64,000 bases of DNA, taken from Oscillospiraceae bacterium. Lineage in GTDB: Bacteria > Bacillota > Clostridia > Oscillospirales > Acutalibacteraceae. The notes under the pieces are model-generated. The model was not told the origin of the DNA and did no database searches. It saw only the letters and a list, made by a program, of their open reading frames with translations. The stretch is taken from NCBI GenBank assembly GCA_015066445.1, contig SVOK01000001.1:123315-187314 (forward strand), read 5' to 3'. Every line of letters begins with the position of its first letter. Positions within the stretch are counted from its first letter, which is position 1. Of the stretch, positions 58,015-64,000 are shown piece by piece. The translations under genes and the position numbers were made by a program.

Positions 58015-58117
58015 ATAAACACTCCTATTGTAAAAAAATTCCTTTTTGCTATATTATTTTATGTGTGGATATTTATATTAATGAGTGCAAGTTTCATATA
58101 ATTTAAAAGGTGATAAT

Positions 58118-59182
58118 ATGAAGCTTTTTAAAAAAATCATTAATGTTTTTTCTGTTATTTTAATTACTGCTTTTATAACTCTCATAATAGCTTCTCCTCA
58201 ACCTTGCAAAGAGGGAGCTATAAACGGTATTTTAATATGCGGCAGAGTAATAATACCTTCACTTTATCCGTTCACCGTTTGCGTACTATTTATAATCAGA
58301 TCTGGTGTACTGCAAAGGCTAAATTTCTTTTCTCCTGTAACAAATAAGCTTTTCTGTATTACAGCCGAACAGTTTTCAATAATGTTGCTTTCTTTTGTAG
58401 GCGGTTTCCCTGTCGGTGCAAAGCTTATAAACGAATATATCAGAGCTAAGAAACTAACTCCGCAGCAAGGAGCTGCAATGCTTAATTACTGTATAAATGC
58501 AGGACCTGCTTTTATAATCGGCGCTGTAGGAGTAGGGATTATCGGAAGCGAAAAAATAGGCTATATCCTGCTTGTAAGCCATATAGCAGCCTCCGTTTTG
58601 CTATGTTTTCTAAGCCGCTTTTCAAAAGTGGAAAAAACAGCCGTGGCACCAATACTAACACCCAAAATCTCCCCTGCAGATAACTTTGTGCTTTCTGCTA
58701 CTGAGGGCGCCGTATCAATATTTAATATATGTGCTTTTGTCATTTTATTTTCCGCTATTAATGCCTATTTAAAGGTACTATCCGTGCATTGGGGGGGATT
58801 TAAATATCTTTTATATGTAACCGAAGTCACTAACGCAATTACCTATACCGATAATATTTTAATGATTTCATTTTTATTAGGTCTGAGTGGTATTTGCATC
58901 TGGTGTCAGGTGCTATCTGCCACAAAAGCTTTAAAACCCAATTTGATTTTATTTGTAGCTTTCAGATTATTACATGGCATTTTCAGCATGATTTTAACAT
59001 ATCTGCTTCTCAAATTATTTCCTGTCACCTTACCTACATTTTCGAGTAATCACAGCTTTTCATTAAGCACGCTTTATTCAACACCGGCACTTACGGTTTC
59101 TATGCTGTCAATGATTATAATTTTTTTAATTTCTCTGAGTGCAAAAAAATATAAAGGCAAAATACTTGAAGATATTATATAA
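58118..59182 (+). CDS. YlbJ-like sporulation integral membrane protein (nucleoside-recognition domain)
   Basis: Multi-TM 'GRVIIPSLYPFTVCVLFIIRSG...SFVGGFPVGAKLINEYI...MLNYCINAGPAFIIGAVG'; SD aaaggtgataatATG. Confidence 0.72.
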   Translation: MKLFKKIINVFSVILITAFITLIIASPQPCKEGAINGILICGRVIIPSLYPFTVCVLFIIRSGVLQRLNFFSPVTNKLFCITAEQFSIMLLSFVGGFPVGAKLINEYIRAKKLTPQQGAAMLNYCINAGPAFIIGAVGVGIIGSEKIGYILLVSHIAASVLLCFLSRFSKVEKTAVAPILTPKISPADNFVLSATEGAVSIFNICAFVILFSAINAYLKVLSVHWGGFKYLLYVTEVTNAITYTDNILMISFLLGLSGICIWCQVLSATKALKPNLILFVAFRLLHGIFSMILTYLLLKLFPVTLPTFSSNHSFSLSTLYSTPALTVSMLSMIIIFLISLSAKKYKGKILEDII

Positions 59183-59508: not shown

Positions 59509-59586
59509 GGTGGATGTAGCTTAGTTGGTTAAAGCGCCAGTTTGTGGCACTGGAGACCGTGGGTTCGAGTCCCATCTTCCACCCCA
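59509..59586 (+). tRNA. tRNA-His (anticodon GTG)
   Basis: ggtggatgtagcttagttggttaaagcgccagtttGTGgcactggagaccgtgggttcgagtcccatcttccacccca. Confidence 0.93.
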
Positions 59587-59648
59587 CAAAAAAGGCTTTG
59601 GCGAAAACTCGTCCAAAGCCTTTATCTAAATTAAATACCAATTCACAT

Positions 59649-59723
59649 TGGGGTGTCGTCAAGCGGTAAGACACAGCACTTTGACTGCTGCATTCGTAGG
59701 TTCGAATCCTGCCACCCCAGCCA
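59649..59723 (+). tRNA. tRNA-Gln (anticodon TTG)
   Basis: tggggtgtcgtcaagcggtaagacacagcactTTGactgctgcattcgtaggttcgaatcctgccaccccagcca. Confidence 0.94.
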
Positions 59724-59728
59724 TCAAT

Positions 59729-59760
59729 CCCGTAAACACTAGTGTTTACGGGATTTTTAC
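59729..59760 (+). terminator. Terminator downstream of the tRNA pair
   Basis: tcccgtaaacactagtgtttacgggattttt. Confidence 0.85.
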
Positions 59761-60000
59761 TTTTTACCTATTGCCTCTTCACTCTTACTTAAAAACAAAT
59801 CTTCTTTTTTGATTTTGGGCTGATAGTACTCAGAAATACTTCATTAAAACTAAGCATTTTTTCGTTAAAACCCCATTAGAAACCAAGTACAAAAAATCTA
59901 TCAAAAACACCCTACGACCACATGTCATCCCATTTATACATTAAAACCATATATTACAAAAAAATTTTCATTCTTTCATTAAATAATATGGTAATTTAAA

Positions 60001-63000
60001 TTAGTTAAGTAAATTTTTTTGCTGTGATAAAAATGTCTGTTGTTCTGAAAAACCACATAAGTTACATAATTTTGCTCTTAGACCTTTATCACACTTATTG
60101 TAATTAAGATATTGTGCTATAATTGAATCCAGTATTCGCGAAGCAAAAGTTTCATTTGTACTATTAAATGCCTTTTTTAAACCTTGAATTTCACCATAAC
60201 TGAATTTGTTAAGACAGTTCATTTTCAAATCCACAAGAATTAGTTTTGATGAAATAGATTGATCAGATTCAAGTGTTTGTCTTGCAACAGGCAAAATATG
60301 CTCGCTATTTAAAGAAACCGCAACCTGGTGCACCATTCCTTGAGACATACCTGAAATTAGAATATTTATAAATCTATGAGTTTCACGTTCCACATCTTCA
60401 CGCAGAATATTTTTCTTCTCATTTTTCGCCCTTTCTATTATATATTCTATCAATTCTTTTTCTAGATACCCCATTGTTTTGATTATAGCTTCTATAGAAC
60501 GCATACCCAATTTATGCATTTCATTGATTATCTCAATCTTTTCCGTTCCTTCTATGGCAACAGGATAGTTTTGAAGAATTTGACCCAAAACTTCTATTGT
60601 TTTTAAAGCGGAAATAACCGATGCCATTTCTCTTTCTTTTTCTGTAATTTCATCTTCGATAATATCCTCGCCATCGTTTACGATTCCATCATTAATACCA
60701 ATTTCATCTAAGTGTATAAGCGCTTTTTCTTTGTTCACCGTAACATTTTCATTATTAGCAATCGTTGATGGTATTAAAGCCTCAATTGCATCTTTTATCT
60801 CATTAAAAATAGGATTTTTTTTACCAAAATCAAATGGTTGATAACTATCTAATGTTGCATACGCATTAAGAAGAACATTGTCAATAACTTCGCTACTGCC
60901 TGAAAAATGACAAACAAAAATAATTATATTGCCATATGTTTCATTGTATAACTTTGCACTCATACATTCTACCATTTCTTGAACATCTTTTTCTTTTAGA
61001 TTGTATGCGATATATCTTCCTGCAAAATAATAAAAAATATAAGGATATTTAAACCTATACACTTCACCTCCACTTATATCGCGGCGAATAATTTTAGCAT
61101 TTATCATTTTGTCTAAAAATTCTTTATTAGAAAGTTGCAAAATATATTTATCTTCAATTTCAGAGGTCACTTCTAATATTTGTTCCTCAGTAAAACTTGT
61201 TCTCCCAAGTTTCAAAGAATTAAAAGCCAATTTTGATAATATACTTTCATCAATATTATACATTCCCGGTTTTGAATAATTAGAAGCAACTTTAGCCAAG
61301 CAACTATCTACTAATGATTTATATAAGAAACCATATTTACTTCCATCCATAGTCTTTTTTATTGCGTCACCATTTTGAAGTGTGCCTATAATAAATACTG
61401 GTATTGCTGGAATAAAAGCAGCTCCATTCCCTAAGAATATATCTATTTGTTTTCTTGCGTTTTCTATACGTTCCTCAATTTCATCATCAGTTAAAGTACT
61501 CTCATTAAGATGATACCATTTAGAAATCAATTCTTTCATTTTCTTATTCCCTAAAGGTAGTATTTGATAATAAATAAATTTATCTAAAGATTTAATATAA
61601 TCAGATGTAAGTATAGTTGATAATTCTATACTAGAAGATAAAAAAACAGTAATATTACCAAAAAAACCACATAAATAATCTAAAACGCATTTTCTCCTAT
61701 CTTTATTGAGCTTTATAAAGTCAAAATCATCAACTATAACGGTTCTTTTAAATTTTGGAAGTTGATTGAATTTTTCCAAACAATCTTTAGAATATTGCGT
61801 TACAAAACAACTTTCGATTACAGAACGAATTTGCGACTCATCGGATGCTGTAAATTCCTTACCATTTAACAACAGACAACAAGAATCTTTTGGTTCTTCT
61901 AATAAAAACATTTTCTTGGCAATAGCAGTTTTTCCGCCAGAACTAGCTCCAACCAAAATATTCAAATTACTATCAGCCAACTCTTCAATTACATTTTTTC
62001 TTATTATTGTTGATTTATTTTTATCATTATAATAATCATTTTTACTGATATCTGGCCAAACAAAAAGATCGGATAGTGTTACATTTTCTTTGGCAAAGTG
62101 ATTTATATATATTCCAATATCTTCTGCCATATCAATAGTTTCCTTATTTGGATGAAAAACACTTTGATTAGATGCTATATTTTTATGATATTGATTTTTA
62201 TAAACCTCTTGCCTATCATAAATAGTACCATTCCATTTGAAATCTATTATCTCAAATGTTTGAAATGCATTATCAAAATTAATAACAGAAAAAGCGCTAT
62301 CGTCGCTATAACTATCTTGTAACTCTTTGCCATGATTACAGAAAACAGAGAAAGAATCTCCTGTTTTTTCATAATTATCTCTTAAATGCTCGTGTCCCAA
62401 CAAAAGCATATCAGCATTTTCACGAATGTTGTCGATAAAATCCCTTTTATATTCTGGATTCAACCAATTTTCCGGATGATGAAACATATAAAATACAATT
62501 TTATATGTTTTTGAATCAATTGGCTCAAACAGTTGTTGTGGTATCACTATTTTGCCTATCTGTTCCTTAAGATTAGACATCCATGCAGTATTTGGAAGTG
62601 CAAAGATCACTTTAAATCCGCCTACTTCCACTTCTTTTCTTGGTAAAATACAATTCGTATCTATATCATACAAACCGGCAAAACTATTATATTCATTTTG
62701 TACAACATTTACTGTATTATAATATTCGTCATCAATTTCAGACGGTTTAGCAGAATCAATAAGTTTTGTGCGTATATATGTATCTTTATCAAAATCACAA
62801 TCATGATTTCCTGGTACACAAACTATATCAACTATAGAATCTTTCTCATTTTTTATATATTCTACTATATGGTCAAGTAAAGATCGAGCCAATTCATATT
62901 GCTCTGGTTTTCCCGAGAAAGCAATATCACCCGAGATAGCAATTACAACATTACCATTATTAGGAAGTGCGCTGACACAAGCCGCTTTTAGAAAATCAAT

Positions 63001-63069
63001 TCGCTTTAATATTTTATCTGTTTTTGCCTTAATATGTATATCCGAAAAATGAATAATTGATAAACCCAT
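60001..63069 (-). CDS. Calcineurin-like metallophosphoesterase fused to a STAND-like P-loop NTPase; candidate defence protein
   Basis: MPE motifs HFSDIHIK, ISGDIAFSG, VPGNHDCD, FHHPENW, LLGHEHLRD; Walker A GASSGGKTAIAKKM; Walker B RTVIVDDFDFI; long helical C-terminus. Start at MGLSII after 'gggggataagtta' SD. Confidence 0.85.
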   Translation of the reverse strand: MGLSIIHFSDIHIKAKTDKILKRIDFLKAACVSALPNNGNVVIAISGDIAFSGKPEQYELARSLLDHIVEYIKNEKDSIVDIVCVPGNHDCDFDKDTYIRTKLIDSAKPSEIDDEYYNTVNVVQNEYNSFAGLYDIDTNCILPRKEVEVGGFKVIFALPNTAWMSNLKEQIGKIVIPQQLFEPIDSKTYKIVFYMFHHPENWLNPEYKRDFIDNIRENADMLLLGHEHLRDNYEKTGDSFSVFCNHGKELQDSYSDDSAFSVINFDNAFQTFEIIDFKWNGTIYDRQEVYKNQYHKNIASNQSVFHPNKETIDMAEDIGIYINHFAKENVTLSDLFVWPDISKNDYYNDKNKSTIIRKNVIEELADSNLNILVGASSGGKTAIAKKMFLLEEPKDSCCLLLNGKEFTASDESQIRSVIESCFVTQYSKDCLEKFNQLPKFKRTVIVDDFDFIKLNKDRRKCVLDYLCGFFGNITVFLSSSIELSTILTSDYIKSLDKFIYYQILPLGNKKMKELISKWYHLNESTLTDDEIEERIENARKQIDIFLGNGAAFIPAIPVFIIGTLQNGDAIKKTMDGSKYGFLYKSLVDSCLAKVASNYSKPGMYNIDESILSKLAFNSLKLGRTSFTEEQILEVTSEIEDKYILQLSNKEFLDKMINAKIIRRDISGGEVYRFKYPYIFYYFAGRYIAYNLKEKDVQEMVECMSAKLYNETYGNIIIFVCHFSGSSEVIDNVLLNAYATLDSYQPFDFGKKNPIFNEIKDAIEALIPSTIANNENVTVNKEKALIHLDEIGINDGIVNDGEDIIEDEITEKEREMASVISALKTIEVLGQILQNYPVAIEGTEKIEIINEMHKLGMRSIEAIIKTMGYLEKELIEYIIERAKNEKKNILREDVERETHRFINILISGMSQGMVHQVAVSLNSEHILPVARQTLESDQSISSKLILVDLKMNCLNKFSYGEIQGLKKAFNSTNETFASRILDSIIAQYLNYNKCDKGLRAKLCNLCGFSEQQTFLSQQKNLLN

Positions 63070-63144
63070 TAACTTATCCCCCTTTTTCGACATTATACAA
63101 TAAAAAAGCTTCTTTTTCAAGGTAATATCCCAGGTTTGCAATTT

Positions 63145-63357
63145 TTATATTTTAAAATAAAGCCACTTATTTTCTTTAAAAACTAGTATAAATTCCTTTT
63201 CATCCGCAACACATTTAAATTTATATTCATTAGGACTAATATACTTTTTTTCTATTATTTTTCGTATAAAAAAGGTTTTTCCTTTTTTATTTGTTATTCC
63301 AAGTGGCAATATATTTCCATCAGGATAAAAATCCGCTCTAACAATATAATCTCCCAT
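63145..63357 (-). CDS. Small hypothetical protein
   Basis: MGDYIVRADFYPDGNILPLGITNKKGKTFFIRKIIEKK...; lies just upstream of the MPE-NTPase on the same strand. Confidence 0.5.
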   Translation of the reverse strand: MGDYIVRADFYPDGNILPLGITNKKGKTFFIRKIIEKKYISPNEYKFKCVADEKEFILVFKENKWLYFKI

Positions 63358-63497
63358 AAACCCTCACACAATAGTTTTATTTATTATACTTTTCATACTT
63401 TTATTATTGTAAAAAAATTTAATTTATAACCAAAATATAATTAATATATTTTTATAAAGAAAAAATTCCGCATTTTGTAAACATTGTCTTTAAATAA

Positions 63498-63890
63498 TTA
63501 ATATTCTTTTATCCCCTCTCCTCTCACATCAGCAAACTCAGTTTTCATTATTTTAATCAACTCTGCAAGTTTAATCTCACACTCTTCTTCAGTCTTAGCA
63601 TACACATTTTTAGATATTCTTTTTCCGTTAGACAATCTCGGTGAATATCTGCCTTCATAGAGGTTATCATTTATTTTACTAATGCAACCTGTCCCGCTTT
63701 TTCTTCTTGAGGGTTTTACAGGCTCAAATTTCGCCTCACAAGGTGTTTTTGAAGTTCTTTCGGGTACTTTCTCATTTTTATCAGAAAGGCTCACATTTCG
63801 CATTATACACCGCTCTATTTTTTCTGCTGCAGTTCTTTGCATTTCATCGGTTATATGGGTGTAAACATTAAGAGTAGTGAATATCAACAA
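63498..63890 (-). CDS. Integrase arm-type DNA-binding domain-like protein
   Basis: GTGCISKINDNLYEGRYSPRLSNGKRISKNVYAKTEEECEIKLAELIKIMKTE resembles the N-terminal arm-binding domain of tyrosine integrases; no catalytic domain. Confidence 0.5.
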   Translation of the reverse strand: MLIFTTLNVYTHITDEMQRTAAEKIERCIMRNVSLSDKNEKVPERTSKTPCEAKFEPVKPSRRKSGTGCISKINDNLYEGRYSPRLSNGKRISKNVYAKTEEECEIKLAELIKIMKTEFADVRGEGIKEY

Positions 63891-64000
63891 TCCTCACACG
63901 ATTGTTTATTAATGTATTTTTTCTCGGGTGGGGGTTGTTTATCGATCAGTTTGTAGTAGATGTGGATTTCTCTCGGCTCTTTGCTGTATTTCCCCGGGCA
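63884..64000 (-). CDS. C-terminal fragment of an unidentified protein running off the window
   Basis: Minus-strand open frame PGKYSKEPREIHIYYKLIDKQPPPEKKYINKQSCEDC*, abutting the integrase-arm-like ORF; coordinates within a base or two. Confidence 0.4.
   Translation of the reverse strand, partial: CPGKYSKEPREIHIYYKLIDKQPPPEKKYINKQSCEDC

Follow-up and report, generated by a model that had tools for sequence, protein, structure and literature searches.

A divergent, intact-looking DS-8 family gene on a probable mobile island downstream of tRNA-Gln in an Oscillospiraceae genome

Locus layout and the tRNA-Gln-associated island

Towards the right end of the window (the whole 64,000-nt stretch of an Oscillospiraceae genome that was analysed), a YlbJ-like gene (58085-59182) precedes tRNA-His (59510-59586) and tRNA-Gln(TTG) (59649-59723), both called on the plus strand by ARAGORN, and a terminator-like stem-loop with a 13-pair stem lies 3′ of tRNA-Gln (59726-59755, plus strand). 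Past the tRNAs GC falls from 38% to 29%; the first-pass annotation had reported both tRNAs, a strong terminator and a turn to AT-rich sequence, and all of these are present. The largest gene beyond (60001-63069, minus strand) is a frame without interruption that encodes 1022 amino acids, the 1023 given earlier having included the stop codon. Ahead of its ATG, and ending 23 nt from it, stands a promoter-like TTGAAA-17-TATAAT (63092-63120, minus strand) with 11 of 12 consensus matches, in a promoter scan that overall did not exceed shuffled expectation. Further upstream on the same strand lie a 70-aa open reading frame (63145-63357), the small ORF of the first-pass annotation, for which no relative turned up among plasmids, phages or family libraries; a tyrosine integrase C-terminal stump of 130 codons (63498-63890); and the last 38 codons plus stop of a large serine recombinase (63884-64000), cut by the contig end. 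Measured against the rest of the 64-kb window, the 1022-codon gene has a GC content of 29.5% (38.2%, sd 1.5%, in 228 size-matched segments, all of them higher) and a GC3 of 18.8% (35.7%, sd 3.0%, in 39 long ORFs, again all higher), an AT-richness far beyond local variation.

Both recombinase remnants have fuller counterparts in other genomes. The 63498-63890 frame, which carries the catalytic-tyrosine motif TTLNVYTH, shares 72.6% identity across 113 aa with a tyrosine integrase of congener G036 that is intact and 473 aa long. It had been described as integrase-arm-like, and its last ~55 residues do resemble an integrase N-terminal arm (32-37% identity), but as a whole it is a C-terminal stump. 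The serine recombinase is multicopy; its end is 84% identical to recombinase C-termini in G064 and G023, and the full-length G064 copy matches Pfam Resolvase, Recombinase and DUF4368.

The junction between the two remnants merits separate description. The stop codon of the recombinase and the beginning of the integrase stump (63890) overlap, and a recombinase/integrase junction of ~25 nt, TGTGAGGATTGTTGATATYCACTAC, occurs in five places (window 63884-64000, L092 1-148, L095 ~1780, L094 5976-5982 and L140 ~891). It recurs on contig C41 of the same genome and exactly in G791, which belongs to another genus, and slightly altered versions stand in G023 and G064; viral contigs gave no match to the pattern. 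Beyond the junction stand differing integrase-type C-termini, all entered just ahead of the catalytic tyrosine, which suggests that a serine recombinase element may insert within tyrosine integrase genes, at the catalytic codons; its left ends lie outside the assemblies.

Comparison among congeners was used to locate the island edge. In the congeners that were read, the YlbJ-like gene, tRNA-His and tRNA-Gln stay together and the sequence 3′ of tRNA-Gln differs each time; in G029, the closest congener by YlbJ-like protein, the contig ends beside that gene. The intact G036 integrase lies ~0.4 kb past the same tRNA-His/tRNA-Gln pair, and the alignment of the window with G036 runs from the tRNAs as far as CGACCACATGTNATCCCA (59915-59932) and breaks off beyond it. 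This 18-nt motif is present with at most one mismatch in 9 of the 70 congeners; its chance expectation in the window is 0.03 even at three mismatches. Its copies in G003, G065 and G055 sit beside tRNA-Pro, the G065 copy adjoining a related integrase (62-64% identity), and close to a copy on contig C24 of G036 is a 52% integrase match; for about half of the copies, neither kind of neighbour, tRNA or integrase, is present within the stretch examined. On the strength of the alignment break and this recurrence, we infer that the motif (CGACCACATGTCATCCCA, 59915-59932, plus strand) is a putative attachment site and the left edge of an island. The island's right edge lies beyond the assembly, the right end of the window being the end of contig C17, and no second copy of the motif was found; the contig stops short of that other edge. 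A repeat of the tRNA-Gln 3′ end was also considered as the attachment site and dropped, this end being single-copy in the genome itself and in all congeners that have it.

The 1022-codon gene, positioned between the motif and the integrase stump, occurs in 1 of 70 same-genus genomes (the window's own), while its upstream YlbJ-like neighbour occurs in 59 of 70. On these sequence comparisons it is best described as an accessory gene on a probable mobile, foreign island, much as first proposed from the tRNA-adjacent position: the distribution, a candidate site near tRNA-Gln and the remnants of two recombinases all agree with that proposal. With an integrase stump at hand and an intact counterpart after the same tRNA-Gln in G036, the locus resembles a tRNA-associated integrative element. 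Sporulation-type genes (YqfD, YabP and the YlbJ-like gene) lie near, and could be taken to point to a STAND protein of the chromosome, either housekeeping or tied to sporulation, with no link to phages; such a role is barely credible in view of the composition break at the gene and of genes 3′ of tRNA-Gln that differ in each relative read, and was rejected on presence/absence among congeners. Neither conserved synteny nor membership of a housekeeping family, two of the findings named in advance as fatal to the proposal, was seen in these comparisons: the gene has the restricted distribution just given and belongs to the DS-8 family described below. The stump state of the adjoining integrase and the absence of a second motif copy would fit a gene in decay, carried along on a dead island and no longer functional, which we regard as quite improbable given an uninterrupted frame of 1022 codons, the retention of every active-site residue and a plausible promoter ahead of the ATG.

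Assignment to the DS-8 family

DS-8 was described in the 2026 DefensePredictor study as one protein, combining metallophosphatase and NACHT domains, that protects E. coli (PMC13092281). It defends alone from a plasmid in E. coli MG1655, loses defence when two predicted catalytic residues or a NACHT residue are mutated, so that both domains are required, and was likened to human SMPDL3A (PMC13092281). The window protein passes the cut-off of the NCBIfam equivalog NF053861 ('DS8_antiphage') with 797.7 bits against 790, a narrow margin of only 1%, and is aligned over residues 7-1006 to profile positions 1-993 of 994. Pfam Metallophos (PF00149) is matched at 48.2 bits (cut-off 21.5) and nSTAND_NTPase4 (PF24406) at 45.3 bits (gathering cut-off 27). 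E. coli WP_187194230, which RefSeq names 'anti-phage protein' and which itself scores 954 bits to NF053861, aligns with the window protein at full length (24% identity, E 7e-69); it serves here as a RefSeq-named member of the family and may not be the DS-8 sequence of PMC13092281. Identity to every relative found is at most 28%.

The order of domains is likewise that of DS-8. A metallophosphoesterase domain (residues 1-294; 62188-63069, minus strand) is delimited by the Pfam match, structure-model matches and metal-site residues, and is followed by a P-loop NTPase core (residues ~357-530; 61480-62001, minus strand) recognised from its Walker motifs and from Foldseek matches to NLRC4 and NLRP3, by a STAND helical region (residues ~531-690; 61000-61479, minus strand) that contains the nSTAND_NTPase4 match at 625-683, and by a C-terminal helical region (residues ~691-1022; 60004-60999, minus strand), the proposed sensor, which is helical in the model and has the lowest mean identity. 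The motifs SDIH, GD, GNHD, HH, GHEH, GASSGGKT and VIVDDFD had been listed in the first-pass annotation and are all there; with its complete metal-binding motifs and Walker A/B the protein has the domain features of DS-8, and it resembles DS-8 also in length and in being encoded by a single gene, the neighbouring genes differing in each relative read. It differs from the known system in its ~24% identity to the RefSeq-named E. coli member and in its host, which is distant from E. coli and has sporulation genes in its genome. We therefore assign the gene at 60001-63069 to DS-8, a system already known, as a distant and intact-looking member; an anti-phage role is supported, given that the protein scores above the curated threshold of a family with an experimental foundation, and the earlier call of a candidate defence gene thereby gains a family name.

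Neighbouring classes were compared in the same way. In PADLOC, the protein matches the candidate family PDC-S60 (PDLC05050, 188.6 bits, residues 308-1012) through its NTPase and C-terminus, and no other PADLOC model matched at E ≤ 1. PDC-S60 (PDLC05050/PDLC05051) is a predicted class only, whose members vary at the N-terminus, with TIR among the variants. DS-9 (NF053862) has a related metallophosphoesterase domain but is a two-gene system, and the window protein reaches 36.8 bits against its cut-off of 420. The earlier likening to Avs holds for the probable way of working, since Avs and bacterial NACHT (bNACHT) proteins also combine an N-terminal effector, a STAND/NACHT core and a C-terminal putative sensor; as a family assignment it gives way to DS-8.

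Relatives are rare and scattered. Two of 398 sampled genomes of the phylum pass the DS-8 cut-off, the window's own included, and relatives of the E. coli gene occur in 7 of 5,426 complete E. coli genomes. Phage records contained no relative of the window protein, and viral-contig scans with the P0001, L004 and L074 proteins as single queries found none; with an alignment as the query, the scan retrieved L120, from an IMG/VR contig that appears phage-like on reading its sequences, with tail-type genes and a UmuC-like gene adjoining. Elsewhere, L004 is flanked by an integrase and a type I restriction-modification system, the plasmid-borne L099 has type IIG restriction-modification and Pycsar-like genes nearby, L073 lies behind an integrase and a second phosphoesterase-NTPase gene, and L074 adjoins genes that, again on reading, resemble conjugation machinery.

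Several of these loci show further arrangements. In genome G297 (L073 4967-11420), an HD-domain gene behind the integrase is flanked by two different phosphoesterase-NTPase genes, possibly a multi-gene variant. In G195 (L097 8254-12289), a DS-8-like phosphoesterase is a separate 439-aa protein followed by three genes, two of them with P-loop-like motifs, beside integrases, possibly a split version of DS-8. Naming in the databases is uneven: one gene of E. coli, which shares 82% identity with the copy in strain MEW, carries three RefSeq names (metallophosphoesterase, STAND family AAA ATPase and anti-phage protein) in NZ_CP182408, NZ_CP034738, NZ_CM169500 and other records.

Phosphoesterase domain and its exchange for TIR

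The metal site is fully conserved: D10, H12, D48, N88, H89, H198, H226 and H228 are unchanged across the nine proteins with a phosphoesterase that were compared. Walker A is G374ASSGGKT381 and Walker B lies around V446-D448. The Walker A lysine, kept in the window protein, is replaced in the relatives L004 (by C) and L005 (by R), whose phosphoesterase site is intact despite this change, though E. coli DS-8 needs a NACHT residue.

Structure was modelled with AlphaFold2 from five sequences, giving a moderate mean pLDDT of 64; a single-sequence prediction was dropped (pLDDT 34). Whole-model TM-scores are low, so that structure matches are used here as support for domain identity only. For residues 1-294 the best match is 9a6c_B, within an integrative YYDD-YYDB model (Z 22.2), and Rv0805 (17.7), SMPDL3A (17.3) and GpdQ (16.3) also match, enzymes that share the predicted fold and the complete metal site and differ in being free-standing, without an NTPase. 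The remaining significant Foldseek matches were NLR proteins, among them the animal NLRC4 and NLRP3. Helices fill residues ~690-1005, and this C-terminal region has a mean identity of 20%, against 30% for the phosphoesterase, when the window protein is compared with six relatives. When every pair is counted, the contrast shrinks to 26% against 30%, for which reason we take it as a hint, not a result, that the C-terminal sensor may evolve fast.

The class III cyclic-nucleotide phosphodiesterase fold and metal site are common to other calcineurin-like enzymes too, and the same defence protein might instead use its phosphoesterase as an Mre11/SbcD-like nuclease that cuts DNA or RNA, not a small nucleotide. 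Mre11/SbcD structures do match residues 1-294, at the lower Z of 14-15.5; TIGR00619 (sbcd) gives a weak match of 17 bits, and the PADLOC CBASS effector model 'Endonuclease' matches the L004 phosphoesterase domain at 54.8 bits. We consider a nuclease somewhat unlikely, as Rv0805, GpdQ and SMPDL3A fit somewhat better (Z 16-18), by small differences and within a fold that does not fix the substrate, and as the only PDB sequence matches to the phosphoesterase domain are to GpdQ.

A different kind of evidence comes from the N-terminus of a relative. In WP_159404407, encoded on the Vibrio parahaemolyticus plasmid pVPHB2014-1 (L100 5620-8241), a TIR domain takes the place of the phosphoesterase, which is absent, while the NTPase and C-terminus resemble those of the window protein: the two align over window-protein residues 254-994 (23% identity, 750 aa, E 9e-30), and the DS-8 model matches the Vibrio chassis with 559.5 bits at positions 299-994. 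In a tree of DS-8 chassis (unrooted, with long branches and local support of 0.74-0.98), it falls inside and not beside the family. Such an exchange of N-termini on one NTPase/C-terminal chassis is the pattern expected of effectors and, as far as sequence can tell, supports the phosphoesterase as the effector. The exchange is new here, and is the main argument we add to the published DS-8 mutants (PMC13092281); with both in agreement, the first-pass suggestion that the phosphoesterase is the effector is supported. As a separate observation, the L100 TIR protein also matches the PADLOC ThsB-like TIR and PDC-S60.

The exchange bears equally on whether the phosphoesterase might degrade a nucleotide signal and so regulate another immune or stress pathway instead of acting directly. 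The cGAMP-degrading SMPDL3A is among the best structural matches and is also the published comparison for DS-8 (PMC13092281), which would suit such a function; we nevertheless judge it improbable, in that DS-8, carried by itself on a plasmid, protects E. coli MG1655 (PMC13092281), no nucleotide cyclase stands beside the gene in the stretch read, and the TIR replacement suggests an effector slot.

Proposed mode of action and significance

Taken as a whole, the locus very probably holds a divergent DS-8 single-protein anti-phage member, on a mobile island entered downstream of tRNA-Gln, that would work from sensor through STAND core to phosphoesterase. In this model, the C-terminal helical region would hold the protein inactive and recognise a phage product; a nucleotide-dependent rearrangement of the STAND/NACHT core would lead to assembly of the protein; assembly would switch on the N-terminal two-metal phosphoesterase; and the activated enzyme would hydrolyse a phosphodiester in a nucleotide substrate, so that phage growth stops. 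What we infer in this scheme is that the C-terminus senses a ligand, that the protein oligomerises, which substrate it acts on and what phenotype the window protein confers. More tentatively, and with some doubt, we propose that DS-8 may be one version within a wider family of receptors, built on a shared STAND/C-terminal chassis with an exchangeable effector (two-metal phosphoesterase, TIR or others), the phosphoesterase destroying a nucleotide that phage or cell needs; if true, this would add a new effector chemistry to bacterial NLR-like receptors.

For the family, DS-8, validated in E. coli, appears to reach, as a rare and highly diverged form, a bacterium that has a small genome and carries sporulation genes, where it probably sits on a mobile island whose edge can be located. 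The TIR exchange offers independent evolutionary support for the phosphoesterase as effector, and very divergent members with an invariant active site should be useful for finding the DS-8 substrate.
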